DNA of 64,000 nt from an uncultured Clostridia bacterium. GTDB taxonomy: Bacteria; Bacillota; Clostridia; Peptostreptococcales; Anaerovoracaceae. The first letter of the stretch is position 1. Each line of letters begins with the position of its first letter. The DNA lies in assembly GCA_945876935.1 (NCBI GenBank), contig CAMCQA010000002.1, positions 62,001-126,000 of the forward strand, read 5' to 3'. The notes below the pieces were generated by a model. It saw only the letters and a list, made by a program, of their open reading frames with translations, made no database searches and was not told the origin of the DNA. This document shows, piece by piece, positions 47,202-61,719 of this stretch. A program made the translations under genes and the position numbers.

Positions 47202-47351
47202 ATGCTCTAATAAGATGTTGGTATGAAATCAAATTGTAATTTAACGATTTAAAAAAGTCGAATGAAAAGAAATTTCATTATTATTTTCTTAAATGATTGA
47301 AGCAAAGAAAACTTGAAGGTAGAATCCAGTTACACGAGTAGAGGAGAAGAT

Positions 47352-48488
47352 ATGAATAATGATAACTTGAAAGATATAGTAAATAATGTACGTGAGAGCT
47401 TATCTCAGTTAGATAGTATAAAAGATAAATACAAAACTATAAGTGAAATCATTTTATCTTATGATGAGCTTTTTGAGGAGAGCTTTAACGAGATACATCA
47501 AGTGGTGGAAAGAGCTATATTATCGATAGGTGCAGAGACATCTATTCTGACGCCATATTTAGATGATGATAGTATTAACGAGATAATGGTTAATGGTCCA
47601 AAAGATATATTTGTTGAAAAGTTTGGAGTAATTGAGAAAGTTGATGGAGAGTTTTTTGATAATAAGGAATTAGAAGATCTTATAAGGAGAATTGGTAGCA
47701 GCATCAATAGAGAAATTAACGAGAATTCACCTATTTTGGATGCTAGATTAAAAGATGGTTCAAGAGTAAATGGAATATATAAGAACCTGACAGGTGGAAA
47801 CTGTGTGCTTACTATTAGAAAATTTAACCAAAAAAGCATAGATATGGATAAGCTTATCGGCCTTGGAACTATAAGTGGTGAAGCTGCTGAGTTTCTAAAA
47901 AATAAAATTAATCAAGGTGTCAATATGTTCATATCTGGAGGTACATCTTCAGGAAAAACTACAATGCTTAGTGCCTTGGTTAATTTAGTTGATAAGAGGG
48001 AGAGAATAATAACTGTTGAAGATAGCAGGGAATTAAGTTTTTCCAATATGAATAATGTTGTTCAGCTAGAGTGTAGACAAGTCAATAGCTGGTCTGGAGA
48101 AGAAATAGGTTTAGATAAACTTATTAAAGCTAGTTTGAGAATGAGACCTGATAGACTTATTGTAGGTGAGATAAGAGACGGAAAAGCGTTGATTAACATG
48201 ATTAGCGGTCTTAATACAGGCCATAGCGGTTTATCAACAGGTCATGGAAACTCCATTGAAGCCATGATTAAGAGAATGGAAGCTTTTTATATGCAAGAAT
48301 CTAATTTTCCTATTGAGAGTATCGATGAACAGTTAGCCACAGCAATTAATATTATGATCCACATGTCTAGAGATAAAGAAGGAAATAGATATGTTGAGGA
48401 GATTGGACAGCTTTATCTCAATGATGCTGGAAGAATAGGCATAAAGAGCATATTTAGGCGAGAGGGCAATATTTTAGAAAAAATATAA
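47352..48488 (+). CDS. tadA: Tad secretion ATPase (TadA/CpaF)
   Basis: 378-residue type II/IV secretion ATPase that powers assembly of Flp-type pili. Seen: Walker A GGTSSGKTT (about residue 199), Asp box / Walker B regions RLIVGEIRDGKAL and ITVEDSRELS, and His box LSTGHGNS. N-terminal region is short, as in clostridial CpaF. The start is ATG 47352 with GAGGAGAAG upstream; the longer frame from 47313 has no ribosome site. First gene of the Tad locus. Confidence 0.93.
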   Translation: MNNDNLKDIVNNVRESLSQLDSIKDKYKTISEIILSYDELFEESFNEIHQVVERAILSIGAETSILTPYLDDDSINEIMVNGPKDIFVEKFGVIEKVDGEFFDNKELEDLIRRIGSSINREINENSPILDARLKDGSRVNGIYKNLTGGNCVLTIRKFNQKSIDMDKLIGLGTISGEAAEFLKNKINQGVNMFISGGTSSGKTTMLSALVNLVDKRERIITVEDSRELSFSNMNNVVQLECRQVNSWSGEEIGLDKLIKASLRMRPDRLIVGEIRDGKALINMISGLNTGHSGLSTGHGNSIEAMIKRMEAFYMQESNFPIESIDEQLATAINIMIHMSRDKEGNRYVEEIGQLYLNDAGRIGIKSIFRREGNILEKI

Positions 48489-48515: not shown

Positions 48516-49256
48516 TTGAACAAAGAGGGTATTTTACAGGAATTATCATCAGGCCAGAGAATGATATATTATATTTTGTCTTATATGACTCTTGTTGCGA
48601 TAGCTTACTTGTTTTATAAAAGCTTGATAATTTCTTTAATTTTCGGATTCTTATCAATAAAATTAGAGCCTGTATATGAGTCCTATATTATGCAAAGAAG
48701 AAAAGAGGAACTGCTATTACAATTTAAAGATTTTCTATATATTATTTCTTCATCTATAAGCGTTTCAAAGTCTATGGAGACAGCTATAAAGGAGAGTAAA
48801 GAAGGGCTGAGAATGATGTATGGCGATGGAATTATTGTAAAAGAAGTGGAACGAATGATAATAGCTATTGATGAAAGAAAGTATAGTGGTGAGGAAGCTC
48901 TTAAGGATATGGCAAAACGAGCAGATATAGAGGAAATTTGGGATTTTGTTGATACATATTCTATTTGCATAGTAACAGGAGGAAATATTAAAAAAGCAAT
49001 TCTTAGCACCATAAGTATATTGACGGATAAGATGAATATAAAGAGAGATATAAAGGCACTGATATCTCAAAAACAGTTTGAGGGTAAAGTTGTATCAGCC
49101 ATGCCTATTGTAATACTCTTGATTTTAAATACTCTTTCGCCTGACTATTTAGAGCCGCTATATACAACACTTGAAGGCAGGATTCTGATGACTATTGCTC
49201 TTTGTAGTTTTTTAGGATCTAGTTTGTGGATATTTAAGATACTTAACTGGAAGTAA
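48516..49256 (+). CDS. Tad inner-membrane protein TadB-like
   Basis: 246-residue type II secretion F-domain membrane protein with an early pair of hydrophobic segments (about 14-50), a cytoplasmic helical region holding QFKDFLYIISSSISVSKSMETAIKES (typical T2SSF helix), and C-terminal spans (about 190-243). Start is TTG 48516 with GAGGTAG upstream. It follows tadA after 27 bases and pairs with the next gene as the TadB/TadC platform. Confidence 0.85.
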   Translation: MNKEGILQELSSGQRMIYYILSYMTLVAIAYLFYKSLIISLIFGFLSIKLEPVYESYIMQRRKEELLLQFKDFLYIISSSISVSKSMETAIKESKEGLRMMYGDGIIVKEVERMIIAIDERKYSGEEALKDMAKRADIEEIWDFVDTYSICIVTGGNIKKAILSTISILTDKMNIKRDIKALISQKQFEGKVVSAMPIVILLILNTLSPDYLEPLYTTLEGRILMTIALCSFLGSSLWIFKILNWK

Positions 49257-49258
49257 CT

Positions 49259-50344
49259 ATGAGAAAATGTAACTTTAAAAACTTAATAGATTGGTTTGTG
49301 GGTAGCACAAATGAGCTAGAAATAAGATTAAAAGCCAGAGGTATAGAAAATATAGATAAAGAGGCAAGAAAGATAAGGAGAGATAATAAAACTCTTCTCA
49401 TAGCAACAGTTGCCATAGCCATAACATCTATTATTATTGGGCTTAGAGAGTATAGCTTAGTAAAAGAGATGTCCTATCAATTGGAAGAAAATAAAAGTTT
49501 CACAAGAGATGAAAAAAAGTCTAGGTTAATAGAATTAGAAGCTTTTGTAAAGAACTCTAATGATAAGAGTATTTCCTCAAAAAAATTAGATGTAAATTTA
49601 TACTCTAAAAATAAATTTATAGAGGAGTCATCTGCCAAAGTGGAATCTCAAATTACTGAGAGTCAAGATAGTATAGATCAAAGAGAACTGCTAAGTGCTA
49701 CAAAGAATGCTGAAAAAACTAATGGTGAAAGGATTGAACTACCACAGCATTTAAAAGACGGGCGCAAAATTATATGGAAAATCCGAAAAAACTTAAATTG
49801 GATTTGGTTGTTAGTAGCTAGTTTATTAAGTATTCTCGCTATACGAAGCCAAAGATTTTCGAGAATCAGAAAGTTAGAAAAATTATGTAGAGAAGATATA
49901 GAAAACAAATTACCTAATTTTGTAAATAAATTAGTGCTTTTATTATCAACTGGGATGATTTTTGATAGAGCTTTTAAGGAAGCTGTTATAAAGCGAAGTC
50001 AGTTAGAAAAGTGTGAGAGGGGATATTTCTATTCTGAACTTTATAGAATAATAGAGAATAACGATAAAACGAAAGAAGATATTGTGGAGCAATTATATGA
50101 GTTCGCTAAAAGAAGTAAAATGAGAGAACTTGTAAGAATAGTAAATATCGTATGGGATAATATGAGCAAAGGGGACATATTAACCGATAAGCTACAGTTA
50201 GAAAGTGAATTGCTATGGTTTTCACAAAAGAAAAATATGGAGGAGAGAGGTCGTCTTTCTGAAGGTAAGCTGATCATGCCACTGCTGATTATGCTTCTAA
50301 TCTTGGTGTTTATAACAGTAGCGCCAGCTATGCTGGATATTTAA
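49259..50344 (+). CDS. Tad inner-membrane protein TadC-like with a long insert
   Basis: 361-residue T2SSF-type protein. After a span at about 45-62 comes an unusual 110-residue Ser/Glu/Lys-rich insert (about 65-175), then a second span (181-195), a cytoplasmic T2SSF helical region (LPNFVNKLVLLLSTGMIFDRAFKEAV) and a final span near 338-358. Typical TadC lacks so long an insert. It starts 2 bases after tadB. The insert might lie outside the membrane and contact the pilus or wall, but this is conjecture. Confidence 0.78.
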   Translation: MRKCNFKNLIDWFVGSTNELEIRLKARGIENIDKEARKIRRDNKTLLIATVAIAITSIIIGLREYSLVKEMSYQLEENKSFTRDEKKSRLIELEAFVKNSNDKSISSKKLDVNLYSKNKFIEESSAKVESQITESQDSIDQRELLSATKNAEKTNGERIELPQHLKDGRKIIWKIRKNLNWIWLLVASLLSILAIRSQRFSRIRKLEKLCREDIENKLPNFVNKLVLLLSTGMIFDRAFKEAVIKRSQLEKCERGYFYSELYRIIENNDKTKEDIVEQLYEFAKRSKMRELVRIVNIVWDNMSKGDILTDKLQLESELLWFSQKKNMEERGRLSEGKLIMPLLIMLLILVFITVAPAMLDI

Positions 50345-50356
50345 TGGAGGATTATG

Positions 50357-50575
50357 ATGATAAAAGAAAAAATAAATAAATTAAGAAAATGTATTTTTAA
50401 TAAAATTATATCTAGAGTTAATGATGATAAGGACTGTATATTTAAAGAAGAAGGGATGGAAATGATACAAGTAGCAATTTTAATTGCTATAGCTATTATT
50501 TTAGGACTTATTTTTAAAACAGAAATAACTAGCTTTGTAAATAAAACTTTTGAGAGTCTAAATAGTGGCTTTTAG
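50357..50575 (+). CDS. Flp-type pilin-like small protein
   Basis: 72-residue protein with a positively charged N-terminal part (1-30), a Glu-rich junction CIFKEEGMEMIQ and one hydrophobic span (MIQVAILIAIAIILGLIF), then a short hydrophilic tail. This is the layout of class III Flp pilins of Tad systems: leader, Gly-before-cleavage and hydrophobic helix. The likely cleavage is after the Gly in EEG. Start ATG 50357 with GGAGG 6 bases upstream; ATG 50354 is only 3 bases away. Prepilin peptidase is not in the window. Call is by context and layout. Confidence 0.65.
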   Translation: MIKEKINKLRKCIFNKIISRVNDDKDCIFKEEGMEMIQVAILIAIAIILGLIFKTEITSFVNKTFESLNSGF

Positions 50576-50975
50576 AGAGATGCTAAATAAAATTAAGATT
50601 TTTGAAGAGAGAGGAAGCTATATTATTTCAGCTACTATGATTCTTCCTATTTTTATATTTATAGTCATAGGACTCATACTGGTGGCCGTACATTTTTCAA
50701 GTGTAACCTTTGATGAAATAAATGCAAATGAGTTTCTAATATATAAAGAAGGGTCTATGAGGAATACCAGAAACATGACTTATGAGAAGAGGAAATTTGA
50801 TTGTTATAAAAGCTCTTCATTAATCGCTCCATATTTGAGCATAAATTTAAATACAAAAAGGAATTTTATAGGAGTAAATACAGAACTTTCAAGTAATATC
50901 GTCATTAGGCGATATTCAGTAAAAGAGAAGAAAATATTGATGTTTAAAGGGATAATAGATGAGGCTACTGAGTGA
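50565..50975 (+). CDS. TadE-like pseudopilin
   Basis: 136-residue protein with a short N-terminal positively charged part, ERGSYIISATMILPIFIFIVIGLILVAV (the TadE-type N-terminal membrane helix after an acidic/Gly junction) and a soluble C-terminal domain. TadE/TadF proteins are minor pilins of Tad pili. The start is GTG 50565 (GAGAG 8 bases upstream) or ATG 50580 (site too close); it overlaps the flp gene. Overlaps the next gene by 17 bases, so the operon is translationally coupled. Confidence 0.75.
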   Translation: MAFREMLNKIKIFEERGSYIISATMILPIFIFIVIGLILVAVHFSSVTFDEINANEFLIYKEGSMRNTRNMTYEKRKFDCYKSSSLIAPYLSINLNTKRNFIGVNTELSSNIVIRRYSVKEKKILMFKGIIDEATE

Positions 50976-52134
50976 AAAAGGCAGTATAACTATATTTAGC
51001 ATTCTCATTTTATCTGTTGTTATAACCAGTATACTGGCACTAACATTGCTTGTTCAAAAAAAGGTCAATAAGGGTATTTGCCAAGATAGCGCAGTAATAT
51101 CGTCTAGAGCTTTACTCTCGGAATACAATAAGTATATTTTAGATGAATATGGTCTGTTGGTGCTAAATAAAGATAACAGATATCTAAGCGAGGCGATGGA
51201 GTTTTATATGATAGAAAATACAAGTAATAGGTGGAATATTAATGCTAATGTAAATAAGGGAAACTATATAGCATCAAATGTAGATAACATGGAAAAAGAG
51301 ATTGTGGACTATCAGAAAGTCGCAGCAATTAAGAATATTGTGGCAGATAAAGGAGATATAAGCCCTCCAAGAGATAGATACAGAATACTCAAAAATAGTT
51401 TTATTGTAGATAATTTACCGTCAGAGGGTGAAAATAGCAGTTTTGCAGGTTTAAAAGAGCTTGCTGACTTCATTAGTAATATAGATGAAGCTTTTGATAG
51501 AACTCTAAATAAAGTGCTAATCGATGACTATATACTGTCAAAATGCAATAACAATTTGCGTGATAATAGTAAGACATTCTTTAGAAATGAAGTGGAGTAT
51601 ATATTAGCAGGAAGTAAAGATGATGAGAAAAATTATAAAAGGTTTAGACGGAAATTAAAATTCCTAAGAAATATTATCAATATTGCTATTATAGAGTCAA
51701 CTCCCTCTATGAAAGCTAAAGTGACTGCAGCAGCAGGGTTAACTGGACCTTTTGCAGGATTTTCGTATTTAGGTTTATTGGAGGCCTGGGCACTGGCGGA
51801 ATCTGAAAATGATGTTGAAATATTGGAACATGGAGGGAAAATACCCATAAAGAAAGATGAAAAAACTTGGGCGATAGATCTGGACAGTATATCTAATATA
51901 AGTGATGGATATATAGATAATAAAGCAACGACAGGTATGGACTATGAAGATTATTTGAGGGCATTTTTATTTTTCACTTCCAAAGAAAAGAAGATTAATA
52001 GATTGATGGATATCATACAGATAAATACGCGAGGGAATAATGATAGACAGTTTTCCTTTTCAGGAAGCAGTTTCGGTATAGAGTTTAATATAGAAGTTGA
52101 AGGACAGCTATATGAATGGCAAGAAAAGTATTAA
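50959..52134 (+). CDS. Tad-locus membrane protein, DUF5702-like
   Basis: 391-residue protein with SEKGSITIFSILILSVVITSILALTLL near the N terminus, again the acidic/Gly junction plus hydrophobic helix of Tad pseudopilins, followed by a large soluble region (about 40-385) without motifs that I recognise. The pattern of DNA-encoded proteins beginning KGxITxF with a long extracytoplasmic part matches DUF5702 proteins of clostridial Tad loci. Overlaps the genes on both sides. Family name is from memory of the pattern, so moderate confidence. Confidence 0.65.
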   Translation: MRLLSEKGSITIFSILILSVVITSILALTLLVQKKVNKGICQDSAVISSRALLSEYNKYILDEYGLLVLNKDNRYLSEAMEFYMIENTSNRWNINANVNKGNYIASNVDNMEKEIVDYQKVAAIKNIVADKGDISPPRDRYRILKNSFIVDNLPSEGENSSFAGLKELADFISNIDEAFDRTLNKVLIDDYILSKCNNNLRDNSKTFFRNEVEYILAGSKDDEKNYKRFRRKLKFLRNIINIAIIESTPSMKAKVTAAAGLTGPFAGFSYLGLLEAWALAESENDVEILEHGGKIPIKKDEKTWAIDLDSISNISDGYIDNKATTGMDYEDYLRAFLFFTSKEKKINRLMDIIQINTRGNNDRQFSFSGSSFGIEFNIEVEGQLYEWQEKY

Positions 52135-52885
52135 AAGAAAACTGAAAATGGAGAAAGGAAGTTATGTTGTAGAATCTGCAATTATTATTCCTATATTTAT
52201 CGTTGCAGCATTGTCGATCATTATATTTATAAGAGCATATGAAACTAACTGGAAGGTTAACAATATTTTAAAAGATGAAGTAGGTTTATCAGCAGCTAGA
52301 GCGTCTGTATTAGAAACAGATATATTTTTAAGAGGGAGAATAGATAAAAGGATAAATGAAATTGGCAATATAAATGTAAATGATGTAAATATAAGTTACA
52401 GCTTGAAATATAAAGATTTTGATAATTTAGTGCGAGTAGCTTTAGATTACTCTTTGAATATAAAAGTACCTATATTTGCCATAGGTGATTATAATAAGAC
52501 AGCACAAGCTTTAGGTCGAAAATTTGTAGGAGATATTAAGTCAAAAGAAACCGTTACATTTGATGATATGGAGAGAGATGATGATAGTCATATTGTTTAT
52601 GTATTTCCAAGAGATGGAGAGAGATTTCACAGATTAAACTGTAGAGTAGTTGCGCCAAAAGCAGAAAAAGTCTTATTAAGTGATGATATAAGAGCTTCTT
52701 ATACAGCATGTGAAGTATGTTGCAAAAAGAAAATTGATAATGGAGATACTGTTATAGTATTTAATGGTTACGGAAAGAGATTTCATTTATCACAATGCAG
52801 TTTTATAAAGAAACAAATAGAGAAGATCCAAAGAAAAACAGCAGAAGAAAAAGGATATAGTCCGTGTAAAATATGTCATCCATAG
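52112..52885 (+). CDS. TadE-like protein with duplicated Cys/His domain
   Basis: 257-residue protein. N-terminal: KGSYVVESAIIIPIFIVAALSIIIFI (TadE helix, about 15-41), then an extracytoplasmic region. C-terminal 100 residues hold two copies of an H-x3-C-x22-C-x2-C pattern: His173, Cys177, Cys200, Cys203 and His225, Cys229, Cys252, Cys255, each preceded by a short beta-like segment (VYVF / VIVF) and an RFH. The spacing is identical. The pattern resembles small zinc-binding domains of the Ada-type kind. Start ATG 52112 with AAGGA 7 bases upstream; a longer TTG start at 52097 overlaps it. Overlaps the DUF5702 gene by 23 bases. Confidence 0.75.
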   Translation: MNGKKSIKRKLKMEKGSYVVESAIIIPIFIVAALSIIIFIRAYETNWKVNNILKDEVGLSAARASVLETDIFLRGRIDKRINEIGNINVNDVNISYSLKYKDFDNLVRVALDYSLNIKVPIFAIGDYNKTAQALGRKFVGDIKSKETVTFDDMERDDDSHIVYVFPRDGERFHRLNCRVVAPKAEKVLLSDDIRASYTACEVCCKKKIDNGDTVIVFNGYGKRFHLSQCSFIKKQIEKIQRKTAEEKGYSPCKICHP

Positions 52886-52901: not shown

Positions 52902-53465
52902 ATGAGGCTAAGAGAAAGAGGATACGAGTTAGAATTAAATGGAGATAAGATAAAGCTTTTAGAAGAGAGAATCTTGGAATCAGGAATCTGCAGCTTTTCA
53001 GTTCCTATGTGGTTTTCTAGAAATGGAGATAAAGTGAAGGCAACCTACGAGTGTAGCGGATATATTTCTTTGAGAGAATTGAACTTTAAAGGGCCTAGAG
53101 AAACCTTTGAAATTATTGAGAAAACCCTTTTGACCTTGAATAGAAGCATAGAGTTTTATATTCCACCAGAAAATGTCACAATAAATTTAGATACTGTATT
53201 TTTCAATAAAGTAAATAGAAGAATAAAGATAGCCTATATTCCCGATGATAATAAAAACCTACATGAGAAGATTGAAAAATTTTTAGATGATATTTCTAAG
53301 GTTTCTTCTGAAGATACTAAAATCTACCTTGATGTGGTGAGGAAAGATATTCCAAAAGAGATAACAAGTTTGAAAGATATAGCTATATTCATAGGGCAGC
53401 AGAGAAAGAAAATAAATAGCTGTCAAGGAAGATTGAGAAATTTTGATAGTAGCAACCATCAGTAG
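52902..53465 (+). CDS. DUF6382-like protein of the Tad locus
   Basis: 187-residue soluble protein. Its layout (an N-terminal beta region with YECSGYISLREL, then RETFEIIEKTLLTLNRSIEFYIPPENVTINLDTVFFNKVNRRIKIAYIPDD) matches the DUF6382 domain, which elsewhere is followed by an FHA domain and is linked to Tad or secretion loci. Here the FHA part is missing and the protein ends in a short basic tail. AAGGAGG precedes the ATG. It is last in the Tad operon and is followed by a terminator. Function unknown; perhaps a pseudokinase-like regulator. Confidence 0.65.
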   Translation: MRLRERGYELELNGDKIKLLEERILESGICSFSVPMWFSRNGDKVKATYECSGYISLRELNFKGPRETFEIIEKTLLTLNRSIEFYIPPENVTINLDTVFFNKVNRRIKIAYIPDDNKNLHEKIEKFLDDISKVSSEDTKIYLDVVRKDIPKEITSLKDIAIFIGQQRKKINSCQGRLRNFDSSNHQ

Positions 53466-54235: not shown

Positions 54236-55531
54236 ATGATTTCATTATCAACAAGAATGAGACCACAGACAATAGAAGACTTCATAGGGCAGGGACACTT
54301 TTTATACAAAGGGTCTCTTCTTTATAATGCTATTTTAAATAAAACCTTCGATAATGGTATTTTCTTTGGCCCTCCTGGAACGGGAAAGACAACTTTAGCT
54401 AGGTTGATCGCAAGGTCTATGGATAGTGAATTTGTTGAAATAAACGCATCTACAACTGGAACAAAGGAGCTAAAGGATATTATTAAACAAGCAGAGGATA
54501 GATTGTTAGGATTTGAAAGAAGAGCTACTTATGTTTATGTGGATGAAGTTCATAGGTGGAACAAGTTGCAACAGGACTCCCTTTTGAAGGCTTTAGAAGA
54601 TGGATGTATCAAGTTTATTGGGAGCACTACTGAAAACCCTTATTTTTCTATTAACAATGCCATTTTGAGCAGAGTCAGAAATATATATGAGTTTAAGATT
54701 CATAGCAGAGAAGATGTTATGAAGATGATTGATAGAGCTTTATCAGATAAAGAAGTTGGCCTTGGAAACTTGGATATTATATGGGAAGATGATGCGAAGG
54801 AAGCTCTTATAGAAATGTCTGGAGGCGATGGCAGAATAGCTTTAGATAGCTTAGAGTATATATCTCAAAATGGGAGAAATGATAAGAGAATAAGTATAAA
54901 GCTAGTTGAAGAAGCTTTGCAGAGGAGAGTTTCTTCTTTTCATAAATCTGAAGATAAATATAACCTTTTATCAGCTCTTCAAAAGTCTATCAGAGGCTCT
55001 GATCCAGATGCAGCTATATATTATTTAGCAAGGCTAGTTACTGGAGGGGAAGACCTTATGACTATCGGTCGAAGACTGCTTGTAATTGCTAGTGAAGATG
55101 TGGGAATGGCATATCCTCAAGCTATATCAATAGTTAACTCCTGTGTGGAAGGAGCTTTAAAAGTAGGATTTCCTGAGGCTGAGATTATTCTTGCTCAAGC
55201 TGTTGTGTTACTCGCTAGCAGCCCTAAGTCTAACGCTTCATATGCAGCTTTATTGAATGCAAAAAAATCTATAAGAAATCACGGAGCTTTTGCACCACCT
55301 ATGCACTTGAGAGATGCTCATTATAAAGGTGCAGAAAAAAGGGGGATAAAAGGATATATTTATCCTCATGATTTTGGAGGATATGTGGAGCAACAGTATT
55401 TACCGGACGAGCTTTTTATTAAAGAGGAAAGATTTTACGAGCCGACAAACAATGGAAGCGAAAGCTCATTTGAAAAATATTTAAATAGCTTAAAAGGGAT
55501 AGGAAAGGACAGAGATAATGGAGATAACTAG
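54236..55531 (+). CDS. rarA: Replication-associated recombination protein A (MgsA/RarA)
   Basis: 431-residue AAA+ ATPase that acts at stalled replication forks. Seen: RMRPQTIEDFIGQGHFL, Walker A FGPPGTGKTTLARLIA, Walker B YVYVDEVHRWNK, sensor GSTTENPYFSINNAILSR, and the C-terminal MgsA region (SEDVGMAYPQAI, GGYVEQQYLPDEL). Start ATG 54236 with GGAG 7 bases upstream; TTG 54233 is less likely. Overlaps ispH-rpsA by 14 bases. Confidence 0.95.
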   Translation: MISLSTRMRPQTIEDFIGQGHFLYKGSLLYNAILNKTFDNGIFFGPPGTGKTTLARLIARSMDSEFVEINASTTGTKELKDIIKQAEDRLLGFERRATYVYVDEVHRWNKLQQDSLLKALEDGCIKFIGSTTENPYFSINNAILSRVRNIYEFKIHSREDVMKMIDRALSDKEVGLGNLDIIWEDDAKEALIEMSGGDGRIALDSLEYISQNGRNDKRISIKLVEEALQRRVSSFHKSEDKYNLLSALQKSIRGSDPDAAIYYLARLVTGGEDLMTIGRRLLVIASEDVGMAYPQAISIVNSCVEGALKVGFPEAEIILAQAVVLLASSPKSNASYAALLNAKKSIRNHGAFAPPMHLRDAHYKGAEKRGIKGYIYPHDFGGYVEQQYLPDELFIKEERFYEPTNNGSESSFEKYLNSLKGIGKDRDNGDN

Positions 55532-57452
55532 AGCCCAGCATAGCGGATTTTGCTTCGGGGTAAAGCAGGCGATTGATAAAGCAGAGAAAGCTGCAGAGGA
55601 GAATAATAAAACTATTTTTAGTTATGGTCCGTTGATACACAATAAGCTTGTAACTGATGATCTGGAAAATCGTGGCATAGAAATAGTTGATAATTTTGAT
55701 AAGCTGCAAGCAGGCGATAAGTTAATAATAAGATCTCATGGCGTTGGTAAGATTGTTTATGATAAAGCAGAAGAAAAATCTATAGAAATTATCGATGGAA
55801 CATGCCCGTATGTGAGCAAGATACATAAGCTTGTGAAAGAAGCCTACGAAGACAATAAAAAAATTGTAATAGTAGGGGATGAGAAACACCCAGAGGTTCA
55901 AGGTATAAACGGATGGTGCAACAACAGCGCTATTATCTTGAAAGAGAAACAAATAATTGAGGAAGACGATCTTTTTGTTGTTGGTCAGACAACTATTAAA
56001 AAAGAGACTTTTGACGATGTTATTTCAGGACTGAAAGGCAAAGATATAGTAATAAAGAATACCATATGCGATGCAACTAAGAAAAGGCAAGATAGTTGTA
56101 AGGAACTTTCTGAAAAAGTGGATGCTATGGTCGTAATAGGTGATCAAGCTAGCTCTAATAGTAAAAAACTTTACGAAATAGCTAATAAATATTGTAAAAA
56201 AGCCTATTTTATACAGGATATTTTCAATTTACCATTGAAAGAGTTAGAAAAATATAATAAAATAGGAATAGCGGCAGGTGCATCGACGCCTGAAAACGCA
56301 ATTAAGGAGGTTATTACAACTATGAGTGATATGATCACTAAAGAAGAATCCATGCTTGATTACATGGAAGAGATTGAGAAATCTTTAAGACTGCCAAGAA
56401 ATGGCGAATTAGTTACTGGTAAAGTGCATCAGGTTACAGACAAAGAAGTCATCGTTAATCTAGGTTGCAAAAAGGATGGAATGATTCCATTATCAGAAAT
56501 TACTTTAGAAGCAGATCAGAAATTAACTGACCTATTTTCAGTAGGTGACGAGATTACTGCTAAAGTTCTAAAGACAGACGATGGTGATGGAACAATCTTA
56601 TTGTCTAAAAAGAAATTAGAAGTTAGTGAACATTGGGACGAACTTGCTAAGGCTTTAGAAGAAAAGACGATTGTGGACGTTACTGTAGTTAGACCTGTAA
56701 ACGGTGGTGTTATAGCTAGCTACAAAGAAGTTCAAGGATTTATCCCTCTTTCACAGCTATTAGATAGATTTGTAGAAGACGCTAGCCAGTTTGTAGGAAA
56801 CGTTCTTCCAGTAAAAATTACTAAGGTTGACCCAAGAAAGGGAAAAGCTATTTTCTCTCACAAGGCTAAGCTAATGGAAGAAAAACAGCAGGCTCTAGAA
56901 GAAATTTGGGGCAGCATCAACGTTGGAGATATCGTTGAAGGTAAAGTAATGAGATTTACTGATTACGGTGCGTTCGTAGATATCGGTGGCCTAGACGGTC
57001 TACTACATATTTCTGAAATTTCATGGGGTAAACTAAGACACCCACAGGAAGTTCTAGAAATTGGACAGACTATTAATGTTCAGATTCTTTCAATGAATCA
57101 GGAAAAGGGCAAAATTTCTCTTGGCTTAAAGCAGACAATGCCAGAGCCATGGTCAGTAATTGACGAAAAGTACCAGGTTGGACAGGTATTTGGTGGAAAA
57201 GTTGTTCAGATTAAAGAGTATGGTTGCTTTGTTGAGCTAGAACCAGGTTTAGATGGTCTTGTTCATATTTCAGAAGTAAATCATGACAGAGTGGCAAATA
57301 TTGCTGATGTTCTAAGCATCGGTGAAGAAGTTCAGGCTCAGATTCTTGAAATCGATAAAGAGAGAAAGAGAATCAGCTTAAGCATCAAAGCTACTATGCA
57401 GGCTCCTGAAAAGGTTGAAGAAGTAGCTGAAGAAGTAAGCGAAGAAGAATAA
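55518..57452 (+). CDS. ispH: IspH fused to ribosomal protein S1-like domains
   Basis: 644-residue fusion. Residues 1-280 are the HMBPP reductase of the MEP isoprenoid pathway, with the [4Fe-4S] ligands Cys12 in HSGFCFGVKQA, Cys96 in DGTCPYVSKIH and Cys184 in NTICDATKKRQ. Residues about 300-625 hold four S1 RNA-binding repeats (GELVTGKVHQVTDKEVIV, DVTVVRPVNGGVIASYKEVQGFIP, EGKVMRFTDYGAFVDIGGLDGLLHISEI, GGKVVQIKEYGCFVELEPGLDGLVHISEV) and an acidic tail. This fusion is common in Clostridia. The two functions may share translation control. Starts inside rarA; terminator follows. Confidence 0.96.
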   Translation: MEITRAQHSGFCFGVKQAIDKAEKAAEENNKTIFSYGPLIHNKLVTDDLENRGIEIVDNFDKLQAGDKLIIRSHGVGKIVYDKAEEKSIEIIDGTCPYVSKIHKLVKEAYEDNKKIVIVGDEKHPEVQGINGWCNNSAIILKEKQIIEEDDLFVVGQTTIKKETFDDVISGLKGKDIVIKNTICDATKKRQDSCKELSEKVDAMVVIGDQASSNSKKLYEIANKYCKKAYFIQDIFNLPLKELEKYNKIGIAAGASTPENAIKEVITTMSDMITKEESMLDYMEEIEKSLRLPRNGELVTGKVHQVTDKEVIVNLGCKKDGMIPLSEITLEADQKLTDLFSVGDEITAKVLKTDDGDGTILLSKKKLEVSEHWDELAKALEEKTIVDVTVVRPVNGGVIASYKEVQGFIPLSQLLDRFVEDASQFVGNVLPVKITKVDPRKGKAIFSHKAKLMEEKQQALEEIWGSINVGDIVEGKVMRFTDYGAFVDIGGLDGLLHISEISWGKLRHPQEVLEIGQTINVQILSMNQEKGKISLGLKQTMPEPWSVIDEKYQVGQVFGGKVVQIKEYGCFVELEPGLDGLVHISEVNHDRVANIADVLSIGEEVQAQILEIDKERKRISLSIKATMQAPEKVEEVAEEVSEEE

Positions 57453-59007: not shown

Positions 59008-59367
59008 TTATTGATTTTCCTTTATATGAACCATAGAGTCATCCAGTATACATTTTATATGATCATCATCAAGGCTGTAATAAATAAGTTTACCATCTCG
59101 TCTACCTTTGATAAGTTTGGCGTTTCTTAGAGCCTTTAGCTGATGAGAAATAGCTGATTGGGACATATTGAGTAGGTATGAAAGATCGCTAACACAAAGC
59201 TCGCTAGATAAAAGACTCATAAGAATTTGTAATCTAGTGCTATCACCCATAACCTTAAAAAAATCAGCTAAATCAGCTATATCATTAATATTTGGCATCG
59301 TTTTAAAAGCTTTATCAATAAGATCCTTGTTTACTGGGATAATATCTGTATTGAATTTATCTGTCAT
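59008..59367 (-). CDS. ArsR/SmtB family metal-sensing repressor
   Basis: 119-residue winged-helix repressor. Helix 3/4: VMGDSTRLQILMSLLSSELCVSDLSYLLNMSQSAISHQLKAL, the DNA-binding helix region. The C-terminal helix DDDHIKCILDDSMVHIKE carries Asp/His residues in the alpha5 zinc-site pattern of SmtB/CzrA, while the alpha3 ELCVSDL keeps only one Cys, so Zn (or Co) rather than Cd/Pb sensing at alpha3 is favoured. AAAGGAG precedes the ATG. It is divergent to the HMA/ATPase operon that it probably represses. Confidence 0.93.
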   Translation of the reverse strand: MTDKFNTDIIPVNKDLIDKAFKTMPNINDIADLADFFKVMGDSTRLQILMSLLSSELCVSDLSYLLNMSQSAISHQLKALRNAKLIKGRRDGKLIYYSLDDDHIKCILDDSMVHIKENQ

Positions 59368-59507
59368 ATTATACTCCTTTATACTATCTAAGAATAATTA
59401 TACTGAAAAATACACCTGCAAGCAAGATAAATAGTTTGTATGAAAAGGGAGTTAAAGTTTGAATTTTAATTTTAAAAGAAAATTATTAAAAAAAATAAAT
59501 TTATATG

Positions 59508-59535
59508 TTGACAATAAAGAGAAAAGGGATATAAT
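59508..59535 (+). promoter_or_regulatory. Promoter of the HMA-ATPase operon
   Basis: TTGACA (59508-59513), a 16-base spacer and TATAAT (59530-59535) form a strong promoter. Start point near 59542, overlapping the ArsR-type operator. Confidence 0.82.
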
Positions 59536-59539
59536 ATAG

Positions 59540-59565
59540 ATATATGAATAGTTGTTCAAATGATA
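59540..59565 (+). promoter_or_regulatory. Candidate ArsR/SmtB operator
   Basis: GATATATGAATA-GT-TGTTCAAATGAT forms an imperfect 12-2-12 inverted repeat with the ATGAAxA/TGTTCAAAT arms typical of SmtB/CzrA-type operators. It covers the start point, where binding would block transcription and metal would release it. The match to the motif is by eye. Confidence 0.6.
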
Positions 59566-59612
59566 AAATATTAAAGTGAAGCTTTGGAAGATAGGTTAAA
59601 CAGGAGGATAAA

Positions 59613-59834
59613 ATGAAAAAGACAATAAAGATGGCAGACTTAGATTGTGCAAACTGTGCAGCAAAAATGGAAGAGGCTATCAAAAAGATAGATGGAGTTA
59701 ACGATGCAAAACTAAGTTTTCTTACTGAAAAGTTAAAGCTTGATGCAGTTGATGAAAAATTCGAAGATATATTAGATGAAATAGAAGTTGTGATAAGAAA
59801 GATAGAAAAAGATGCGAAAATTATAAGAGGATAA
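59613..59834 (+). CDS. Stand-alone heavy-metal-associated (HMA) domain protein
   Basis: 73-residue protein consisting of one HMA domain (beta-alpha-beta-beta-alpha-beta). The metal-binding motif DLDCANCAAKMEEAI gives the CxxC of the ZntA/CadA type (DCAxC). It probably delivers Zn(II) or Cd(II) to the ATPase encoded 40 bases on; in most relatives this domain is part of the ATPase itself. CAGGAGG precedes the ATG. Confidence 0.9.
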   Translation: MKKTIKMADLDCANCAAKMEEAIKKIDGVNDAKLSFLTEKLKLDAVDEKFEDILDEIEVVIRKIEKDAKIIRG

Positions 59835-59874
59835 ATATATGCATCTTTGATGAAATGTGAAGAGGAATATTTGT

Positions 59875-61719
59875 ATGAATAAGAAAATGAAGCAAAATTT
59901 GATAAAGATATTAATATCCTTGATTATGTTCGTTTTAGCCATAGTACTTAAAGAGAATACTTACATCTATTATGTATTAAGCTTTTCATCTTACTTAGTG
60001 GTTGGATGGGATGTTATATTTTCATCAGCCAAGAAAACTTTAAATGGAAGGCTATTTGATGAAGATTTTCTCATGACTATTGCAACATTTGGAGCTTTTT
60101 ATATAGGAGAACTTACTGAAGGTGTTATGGTAATGCTGCTTTTTCAAATAGGAGAGTTATTCCAATCATATGCTGTAGGTAAGTCTAGGCAGTCCATAAC
60201 AGAGCTTATGAACATAAGACCTGATTATGCTAATCTTATGGTAGATGGAAATGAAGAGAAGGTAGATCCTGATGATGTAGAAGTAGGAAGTACAATACTT
60301 ATTAAGCCAGGTGAGAAAGTTCCTATAGACGGCATTATTATAAAAGGAAGCAGTTACGTTGATACATCTGCAATCACTGGGGAGTCCGTTCCTAGAAGCT
60401 TGGAGATAGGTGATGAAATTTTAAGTGGGTTCATCAATCAGAGCGGTCTTATTGAGGTTAGAACAACAAAAGAGTTTGATGAAAGCACAGCTTCTAAAAT
60501 ATTGGAGTTAGTTGAGAATGCTAGTAGCAGCAAGGCAAAAACTGAAAACTTTATAACGAAATTTGCCAGATACTATACACCTGCAGTAGTTATAGGTGCA
60601 GTATTATTAGCTTTTCTTCCGACAATTTTAGGAAGCGATTTAGGCTTAAATATGTGGATTAAAAGAGCTTGCAGTCTTCTTGTAATATCATGCCCATGTG
60701 CTTTGGTAATATCTGTTCCTTTAAGCTTCTTTGGAGGAATAGGAGGAGCAGCTAGAGAGGGCATTCTAATTAAGGGTAGTAACTATATCGAGTCCATATC
60801 TGACATAGGAACTGTAGTTGTAGATAAGACTGGAACTATTACAAAGGGTATTTTTACAGTTACTCAGGTTAATAATTTCGGAGAGTCTGATGTTTTAGAA
60901 CTAGCAGCTTACGGAGAATCTAATTCAAGTCATCCTATAGGAAGATCAATAGTCGCTTATTATGGAAGACCGATAGACAAGAATCTTTTAGGAGAAGTAA
61001 AAGAGTTTGCTGGAATGGGTCTGGAAGTGGATATTAGAGAAGTTTCTACATTGATAGGTAACGAAAGACTGATGACAAGCAGAGGGATTGATACACCTAA
61101 AGTTGATTCCATTGGAAGCTTGGTGTTTGTAGCTCAACACAATGAGATATTGGGATACCTTCAGGTGTCTGATGAGATAAAAGAAGAGAGTTATACATTC
61201 GTTAATAAGCTTAAGATGCAAGGTGTTAAAGATACGATTATGCTTACTGGTGATAGAAAAGAAATCGCCAATAAGATTGGTGCTAAAGTAGCTATTGACA
61301 ATGTTAGATATGAGCTTCTTCCACAGGATAAAGTTAGTGAAATAGAAAAAATTATCTCAGATAAGAATGATGATAAGAAAGTAGCTTTTGTAGGAGATGG
61401 TATCAATGATGCGCCTGTGCTTGCTAGGGCAGATATAGGTATTGCAATGGGCGCTATAGGCAGTGATGCGGCTATTGAAGCAGCTGATATCGTAATAATG
61501 GATGATGATATAAGCAAGATTGCTAAGGCTATTAAAATAAGTAGAAGAACTATGGCTATAGTGTGGCAAAATATAATATTTGCTTTAGGTATTAAGATAG
61601 TATTCTTAGGCTTGGGAGCTTTTGGTAAGGCTGAGCTCTTTGAAGCTGTATTTGCGGACGTAGGAGTGGCATTTATAGCTATACTAAATGCTATGAGAGC
61701 TCTAAAACGAGTAAAATAA
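59875..61719 (+). CDS. zntA: Zn/Cd-exporting P1B-type ATPase
   Basis: 614-residue P-type ATPase lacking its own N-terminal HMA domain. Seen: the phosphatase motif TGES, the membrane metal site SCPCALVISVP, the phosphorylation site DKTGTITKG, SSHPIG (the HP motif), GDGINDAPVL and the last-helix ADVGVAFIAILNAM (the P1B-2 Asp). These residues mark the Zn/Cd/Pb group. Start ATG 59875 with AGAGG 9 bases upstream; the GTG at 59857 lies before it. A very stable hairpin follows. The ArsR-family gene upstream is the likely regulator. Confidence 0.93.
   Translation: MNKKMKQNLIKILISLIMFVLAIVLKENTYIYYVLSFSSYLVVGWDVIFSSAKKTLNGRLFDEDFLMTIATFGAFYIGELTEGVMVMLLFQIGELFQSYAVGKSRQSITELMNIRPDYANLMVDGNEEKVDPDDVEVGSTILIKPGEKVPIDGIIIKGSSYVDTSAITGESVPRSLEIGDEILSGFINQSGLIEVRTTKEFDESTASKILELVENASSSKAKTENFITKFARYYTPAVVIGAVLLAFLPTILGSDLGLNMWIKRACSLLVISCPCALVISVPLSFFGGIGGAAREGILIKGSNYIESISDIGTVVVDKTGTITKGIFTVTQVNNFGESDVLELAAYGESNSSHPIGRSIVAYYGRPIDKNLLGEVKEFAGMGLEVDIREVSTLIGNERLMTSRGIDTPKVDSIGSLVFVAQHNEILGYLQVSDEIKEESYTFVNKLKMQGVKDTIMLTGDRKEIANKIGAKVAIDNVRYELLPQDKVSEIEKIISDKNDDKKVAFVGDGINDAPVLARADIGIAMGAIGSDAAIEAADIVIMDDDISKIAKAIKISRRTMAIVWQNIIFALGIKIVFLGLGAFGKAELFEAVFADVGVAFIAILNAMRALKRVK

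Follow-up and report, generated by a model that had tools for sequence, protein, structure and literature searches.

A TadE-like minor pilin with two Ada-type, predicted zinc-binding modules in a clostridial tad operon

The window analysed here, a stretch of 64,000 nucleotides from an uncultured Clostridia bacterium (assembly GCA_945876935.1, contig CAMCQA010000002.1), contains at 52112–52885, on the plus strand, a gene whose translation, alignment and synteny define a TadE-like minor pilin of 257 residues, ending in two modules with the pattern H-x3-C-x22-C-x2-C. The twin-module pilin is a real and strongly conserved modular Tad pilin, of which no description was found in the literature search. 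In its best reading, which falls a little short of an even chance, it would belong to the Tad tip complex, as a modular minor pilin whose two Zn(Cys)3(His) modules bind extracellular nucleic acid.

The ATG at 52112 is preceded by AAGGA, which resembles a ribosome-binding site, and an alternative in-frame TTG is located upstream, at 52097. Residues 1–16 (52112–52159, plus strand) form a class III (prepilin) leader ending with Gly16; the predicted cleavage between G16 and S17 would bring Glu21 to position +5. A scan of named records identified 143 relatives, and the best 80 of these make up alignment A2 (about 24–37% identity); they belong to Mogibacterium, Emergencia, Anaerovorax, Sinanaerobacter, Gallibacter, Baileyella and Mobilibacterium, and to many genomes designated “Family XIII”. 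Genome G077, of the same genus as the window, shares its match coordinates with L032 (Gallibacter intestinalis), and the window therefore most likely comes from Gallibacter. G16, E21 and P27 are invariant in the 80 rows of A2, and Gly followed by Glu at +5 is found in 80/80 loci (best 80 of the 143 relatives); the protein thus carries the prepilin signature G|xxxxE with a hydrophobic helix behind it. In the AlphaFold2 model of the full protein (mean pLDDT 84.9, pTM 0.54) a long N-terminal pilin helix (residues 15–63; 52154–52300, plus strand) is followed by a small head, composed of a helix (73–83) and a three-strand sheet (89–136; head at 52328–52519, plus strand), and by two small beta-rich modules. 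Structure searches with this model listed regions of PBP2a and PanC, which in the VIA-align rows are matched via residues 33–141 only, and no solved pilin was among the PDB matches listed; PDB sequence searches with the protein and with A2 gave nothing useful. Pfam TadE (PF07811) scores 15.3 bits, below the cut-off of 22.9, and for this reason the protein is named TadE-like and is not filed as PF07811; the same family is detected at E ≤ 0.1 in 19/80 members of A2 (best 80 of 143) and reaches 28.0 bits in L119, a homolog from another family. The TadE-like identity proposed in the first-pass annotation is upheld by the invariant Gly16/Glu21 signature and by the synteny of the tad operon, and the protein is almost certainly a minor pilin of a Tad system.

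The gene is the seventh of a tad operon lying on the plus strand. The operon starts with a TadA-like T2SSE ATPase (47313–48488), the sole one found in the genome, followed by a TadB-like platform protein (48516–49256; T2SSF at E 0.0063, below cut-off), a TadC-like platform protein (49259–50344; weak T2SSF), a Flp1-like major pilin (50354–50575; PF16982 at 40.8 bits, cut-off 33.5), a short TadE-like minor pilin, TadE1 (50565–50975; no Pfam match over cut-off), and a DUF5702 minor pilin (50959–52134; PF18960 at 166 bits); a DUF6382 protein (52902–53465; PF19909 at 32.3 bits, cut-off 26.7) comes after the twin-module pilin and is the last gene. The intergenic gaps along the operon are 27, 2, 9, −11, −17, −23 and 16 bases, the 3′-end of the DUF5702 gene overlapping the twin-module pilin gene by 23 bases. 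Synteny was counted with the window's proteins as queries, on the same strand and only at loci with enough flank (from the best 80 of the 143 relatives): the twin-module pilin is accompanied by TadA in 62/63 loci, TadB in 67/68, TadC in 69/71, Flp in 72/72, TadE1 in 74/74, DUF5702 in 76/76 and DUF6382 in 77/78, while ScpA and ScpB are found beside it on the same strand in 0/45 and 0/59 loci with enough flank.

The neighbouring minor pilins differ in the residue at +5, which is Glu in 69/69 of the TadE1 relatives scored and is never Glu in the 71 DUF5702 relatives scored (0/71), having F, L, M or I there; the window's DUF5702 pilin also lacks it. Two reviews, in their available text, assign the pilin subunit devoid of Glu5 to the tip (PMC10191384, PMC6370729), and the sequence of the DUF5702 pilin suggests that it may be the tip cap; no paper naming DUF5702 was found in the literature search. 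The window's own TadE1 (50565–50975) has Ser at +5. About 6 kb downstream, at 59008–61719, lies a cluster resembling metal genes, which we take to encode an ArsR/CadC-type regulator (minus strand), a small CxxC metal-binding protein and a P1B-type metal ATPase; it is probably unrelated, a link to the twin-module pilin being unlikely. The single frame at 55518–57452 presumably encodes a fusion of S1 RNA-binding repeats with an IspH-like enzyme.

Module 1 spans residues 159–205 (52586–52726, plus strand), with H173-x3-C177-x22-C200-x2-C203 (ligand codons at 52628, 52640, 52709 and 52718), and module 2 residues 211–257 (52742–52882, plus strand), with H225-x3-C229-x22-C252-x2-C255 (codons at 52784, 52796, 52865 and 52874); translation and codons place the ligands in the 257-residue product exactly where the first-pass annotation had them, with identical spacing in both modules. 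The 47-residue copies share 13/47 residues and have an ungapped BLOSUM62 score of 61, compared to a mean of −47 (SD 15) for shuffled copies, with 0/20,000 shuffles reaching 61, and the 52-residue offset is the best self-match of the ectodomain; the duplication recognized in the first-pass annotation is thus beyond chance. Identity between copy 1 and copy 2 amounts to 28.5% when both are taken from one protein and to 27.5% when they are taken from different proteins, whereas it is 42% and 51% for like copies; therefore, the duplication is older than the family.

The twin-module pilin matches 269/296 same-family genomes (E ≤ 0.001), usually once, and 145/152 good genomes; its own genome has a single copy. 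All eight ligands, with the spacing 3/22/2 + 3/22/2, are present in 80/80 loci (best 80 of the 143 relatives), which were picked by a pattern covering Cys252 and Cys255, and therefore only the conservation of copy 1 and of His225/Cys229 is unbiased in this set. The eight ligands are invariant in the 80 rows of A2 (the same best 80 of 143) and in alignment A1, obtained with no pattern selection (26 rows: the twin-module pilin and 25/30 loci, the window itself and near-duplicates being left out). In a second clostridial family both modules are found in 11/11 full-length homologs read, with H-x4-C as spacing; the Cys and His residues, on whose conservation the initial claim of metal sites had been made to depend, are thus kept in orthologs. 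In other families there are one-module TadE-like proteins (L125, L130, L132, L138, L163, L171, L174 and L175), and module-free TadE-like proteins are found in the same class (L129, L133, L135 and L136).

Forty-two same-family genomes, namely 20 of the 27 without hit and 22 with weak hits, were searched again, and 28/42 gave a match while 14/42 did not. In this set, picked for weak or missing hits, 20/28 matching genomes have one complete module instead of two, which rules out a strict need for twin modules. In 13/13 of the single-module proteins scored (of the 20), copy 1 is the nearer match for the first half and copy 2 for the second, a sequence pattern that fits with single modules having arisen through a deletion that collapsed the pair; on its own the signal of the second half is weak, since unrelated single modules have GYTPC as well. 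Among the 28 matches, the gene is cut by contig ends in G150, G105 and G219, both modules are visible on a cut contig in G189, the match in G135 is another protein, and G030 was placed in none of these classes. In G021 (L213) there is only a 63-aa frame, which holds the end of module 2 and has no H-x3-C in place; this gene is broken or frame-shifted and was left out of the full-length orthologs. No full-length ortholog read in the same-family genomes is missing a complete site. Of the 14 non-matching genomes, 11 also lack the DUF5702 match, and in the other three (G023, G026 and G112) the contig breaks off at DUF5702, which is why these three do not count as counter-examples. In locus L192 (genome G008) the H-x3-C half of module 1 is lost, with module 2 intact.

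Profile comparison connects the module to the N-terminal zinc domain of Ada. Pfam Ada_Zn_binding (PF02805) scores 20.3 bits on module 2, below its cut-off of 23, and is detected at E ≤ 0.1 in 21/80 members of A2 (best 80 of 143), while related His-type domains on other proteins exceed the cut-off; an NCBIfam scan of the twin-module pilin gave no match. A profile of 33 module copies (A3) matched the His-type PF02805 domains (A5, seven domains) with a probability of 98.1 and E 1e-13, these domains matched a set of nine true Ada domains with a probability of 98.8 and E 1.4e-16, and the direct comparison of A3 with true Ada gave 82.7 and E 9.5e-6; column-shuffled controls scored 12.6 and 12.0 (8.6 and 20.5 when the ligands were left unshuffled), versus 26 and 58 for the real comparisons. 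Judged by sequence, then, and via intermediates over the Pfam cut-off, the module is related, as a His-type form, to the N-terminal zinc domain of Ada (He et al. 2005, cited through the available text of PMC4437013 and PMC4999995). The two share, besides the profile similarity through intermediates, the order of the four ligands, a nearly identical spacing and the ending G-[YF]-x-[PA]-C-x2-C; all 33 copies in A3 follow the order [C/H]-x3-C ... C-x2-C, those from the second family having x4 in its first part, and the C–C spacing is 22 residues in the module versus 26 in Ada (alignment A4). Unlike Ada, the twin-module pilin is extracellular, has two copies of the domain, lacks a DNA-repair partner domain and carries His in place of Cys38.

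The first ligand is His in 33/33 copies of A3 and in 7/7 domains of A5, whereas it is Cys in 9/9 true Ada domains; the His of the module aligns with the first Cys of Ada, C38, which is the methyl acceptor (PMC4437013, available text), and methyl transfer by that residue is therefore excluded. A Zn(Cys)3(His) site would, by its charge, resemble methylated and not unmethylated Ada, the methylated form being described in the same text as the DNA-binding state. The two sites are predicted from their sequence to bind Zn, and very probably do so: the zinc-type sites proposed at first draw on the homology to the Ada zinc domain and on an invariant His that a plain disulfide would not need.

A model of the twin module alone (pLDDT 76.9) gave weak matches to RING-H2, C1 and OB-type folds with Foldseek and VIA-align, RING-H2 and OB-type coming first (E no better than 0.88; Z no higher than 3.6, for 48 residues at 2.9 Å); no Ada entry was among the structure matches listed, which is not evidence against an Ada fold. 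The RING-H2 match raised a RING-like cross-brace, with ligand pairs 1+3 and 2+4, which was set aside because the same four-ligand unit stands alone on many proteins. A3 compared with PDB sequences gave weak eL43-type matches (best E 0.097).

The A3 profile matched 54/196 genomes of the class at 1e-6, and the 29 loci from this search (L148–L176) comprise 10 TadE-like pilins and 19 non-pilin proteins; the search for the domain in other Tad proteins and in other proteins, suggested in the first-pass annotation, was thus productive on both sides. By this distribution of sequences the module is not pilus-specific, and the twin-module protein is a modular pilin, formed by a pilin moiety and a non-pilus module. 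A Pfam scan of 27 non-pilin carriers (the 19 above, seven of eight His-type loci found with PF02805, L145 being left out, and L216) identified 11 with a metallo-beta-lactamase (MBL) domain, two with SNase, one with Endonuclease_NS_2 and one with ChW repeats, and no recognised partner domain in 12/27. All of the MBL carriers tested (8/8) match the C-terminal nuclease part of ComEC/Rec2 (TIGR00361, approximately positions 440–663), below the full-length cut-off and as best hit in seven and second in one, and one MBL carrier has a hit at E 3e-44 to the solved beta-lactamase-like domain of ComEC, for which the role of competence nuclease has been put forward (PMC5031224, available text). Thus, the recognisable partners are mostly nucleic-acid enzymes or their relatives. 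The His-type modules are C-terminal on stand-alone MBL proteins, on thermonuclease-like proteins and on an NS endonuclease; these carriers (L148, L150, L153, L159, L164, L169, L142, L184–L187, L154, L167 and L143) belong to Clostridia and other Bacillota, and Pfam finds the module in some only. As to the role, of which the first-pass annotation knew none, the occurrence of the module on extracellular nuclease-type proteins suggests nucleic acid as the ligand, this function being a predicted one. Among titles and abstract openings, with a coverage that leaves out most subscription journals, no description was found of zinc modules on TadE-type pilins or of Ada-type domains on secreted nucleases.

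The same modular pilin might instead use structural Zn modules as adhesins for protein, glycan, peptidoglycan or surfaces, which is unlikely but deserves consideration, since the available text of PMC8179133 presents grafted adhesion modules as a frequent use described for modular pilins and that of PMC4322843 presents Tad pili as best known for adhesion; one non-pilin carrier with ChW surface repeats and the 12/27 without recognised partner are also in its favour. The partners of the module argue otherwise: it is joined to MBL or nuclease domains in 14/27 non-pilin carriers, and to a lectin, vWA or glycan-binding Pfam domain in 0/27. Slightly less likely still is a reading in which the modules are Zn-stabilised clamps that lock the tip complex, for example against DUF5702, without an outside ligand and in pilus initiation only. 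In its favour are the tie of the gene to DUF5702, by overlap and by synteny in 76/76 loci with enough flank, the persistence of both modules across two families and the requirement of TadE/TadF genes for piliation in M. luteus (PMC4322843, available text); however, the module-free TadE-like proteins of the same class (L129, L133, L135 and L136) and the single module of 20 same-family genomes indicate that assembly in itself does not depend on a second module, and the module is present also on non-pilin secreted proteins. Very improbable is a reading with redox-active or disulfide-bonded Cys, or with sites that serve to sense extracellular zinc, in place of structural zinc, since, despite the reactive zinc-site Cys of Ada, C1B and Hsp33 (PMC4999995, available text) and the disulfides predicted in minor pilins of another Tad system (PMC12075869, available text), the two His are no less invariant than the six Cys, which disulfides leave unexplained and which led to the rejection of a disulfide as first choice, and the ligand arrangement is that of a zinc domain family.

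As the role of the modules, nucleic-acid binding, to which we give a little less than an even chance, is preferred over adhesion and over a pure assembly function, and is favoured because of the partner domains, the gene content, the charge state of the site and the conserved basic positions. Basic residues are conserved in the twin modules at positions 171, 194, 234, 241, 247 and 254; the net charge of the twin module is mildly and variably positive (mean +2.6, SD 4.1, range −6 to +11), and residue 254, the counterpart of the DNA-contacting Arg71 of Ada, is Ile here and Lys in 90% of the relatives. Among 38 near-complete same-family genomes, ComEA is over cut-off in 38/38 and ComEC is found in 37/38, and both are present in this genome; ComEA and ComEC are common in Bacillota, so that their presence proves little and alone is no proof of competence. 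TadA is the single T2SSE ATPase in 20/38 of these genomes, this one included, and further T2SSE ATPases are present in 18/38. ComEC is located within about 25 kb of TadA in 5/38 genomes of three genera (G077:C12, G166:C11, G060:C1, G124:C29 and G048:C9), and a genomic linkage of ComEC and TadA is possible. The variable net charge, Ile254, the 12/27 partnerless carriers and the ChW carrier count against nucleic acid, and the further T2SSE ATPases of 18/38 relatives count against a role in DNA uptake. The sub-threshold Pfam scores for TadE and Ada_Zn_binding, and structure searches that gave no confirmation of an Ada fold, likewise weigh against the best reading as a whole.

In the proposed mechanism, the N-terminal helix, processed at Gly16, would pack with the DUF5702 and short TadE-like pilins into an initiation or tip complex, and the loop following the pilin part would show two Ada-type zinc modules outside the cell. 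The first-pass annotation had put its metal sites on a tip-like protein in the extracellular space: the pilin topology bears out a position outside the cell, whereas the tip is taken over from studies on TadEFG and Kil proteins, an analogy that makes display at the pilus tip probable. Each module would hold one structural Zn2+ by one His and three Cys, with a site charge less negative, as it is in Ada only after methylation, which would permit contact with DNA; with His at the place of the methyl-acceptor Cys, the modules would therefore most likely bind extracellular nucleic acid. The captured nucleic acid could be passed to ComEA/ComEC, and the Tad fibre would be a DNA-capturing pilus, for competence or for DNA scavenging. 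A broader proposal, doubtful on balance, is that the His-type offspring of Ada, permanently “switched-on”, is a general extracellular nucleic-acid module of Clostridia, used on ComEC-type nucleases, thermonucleases, an NS endonuclease and the Tad tip, and that in the Mogibacterium/Gallibacter group the twin-module pilin serves as DNA receptor for a so far unrecognised uptake system based on Tad.

For the question of how Tad pili of monoderm bacteria achieve recognition, the twin module provides a candidate working end that can be tested directly, being small, soluble and conserved family-wide among gut and oral Clostridia, which form a large group. It also points to the reuse, in the extracellular space, of a sensor domain from DNA repair in which His has taken the place of the reactive Cys; if the DNA-receptor reading is true, the twin-module pilin becomes considerably more interesting.

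Tad genes are required for DNA uptake in Micrococcus luteus (PMC4322843) and in Liberibacter crescens (PMC8513845), whose available texts name no DNA receptor of a Tad competence pilus and mention no zinc module. In both, as may be the case here, a Tad filament could feed ComEA/ComEC, and the present gene content resembles the setting behind the discovery of Tad-dependent transformation in M. luteus; the need for tad was shown there by mutants, whereas here the system is known from gene content alone. As to modular pilins, Streptococcus sanguinis PilB and PilC have grafted vWA and lectin modules (PMC8179133, available text) and are similar to the twin-module pilin in that a module known also on non-pilin proteins is grafted onto a pilin. 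The modular pilins described in that text carry vWA, lectin, PA14, peptidase and other modules, and not Ada-type zinc; its survey was based on the N-terminal motif IPR012902, so TadE-type pilins may lie outside of it. Further counterparts are the TadE/TadF/TadG minor pilins and, in Myxococcus xanthus, the KilLMN tip complexes (PMC12075869, in whose main text the words “zinc” and “Firmicutes” are absent). As described in the available text of that paper, the tad locus contains, as here, three minor pilins, which have, as predicted for the clostridial protein, an N-terminal helix, a beta head and additional C-terminal domains held to be displayed where the pilus ends; in the clostridial protein, by comparison, these extra domains are two Ada-type zinc modules.
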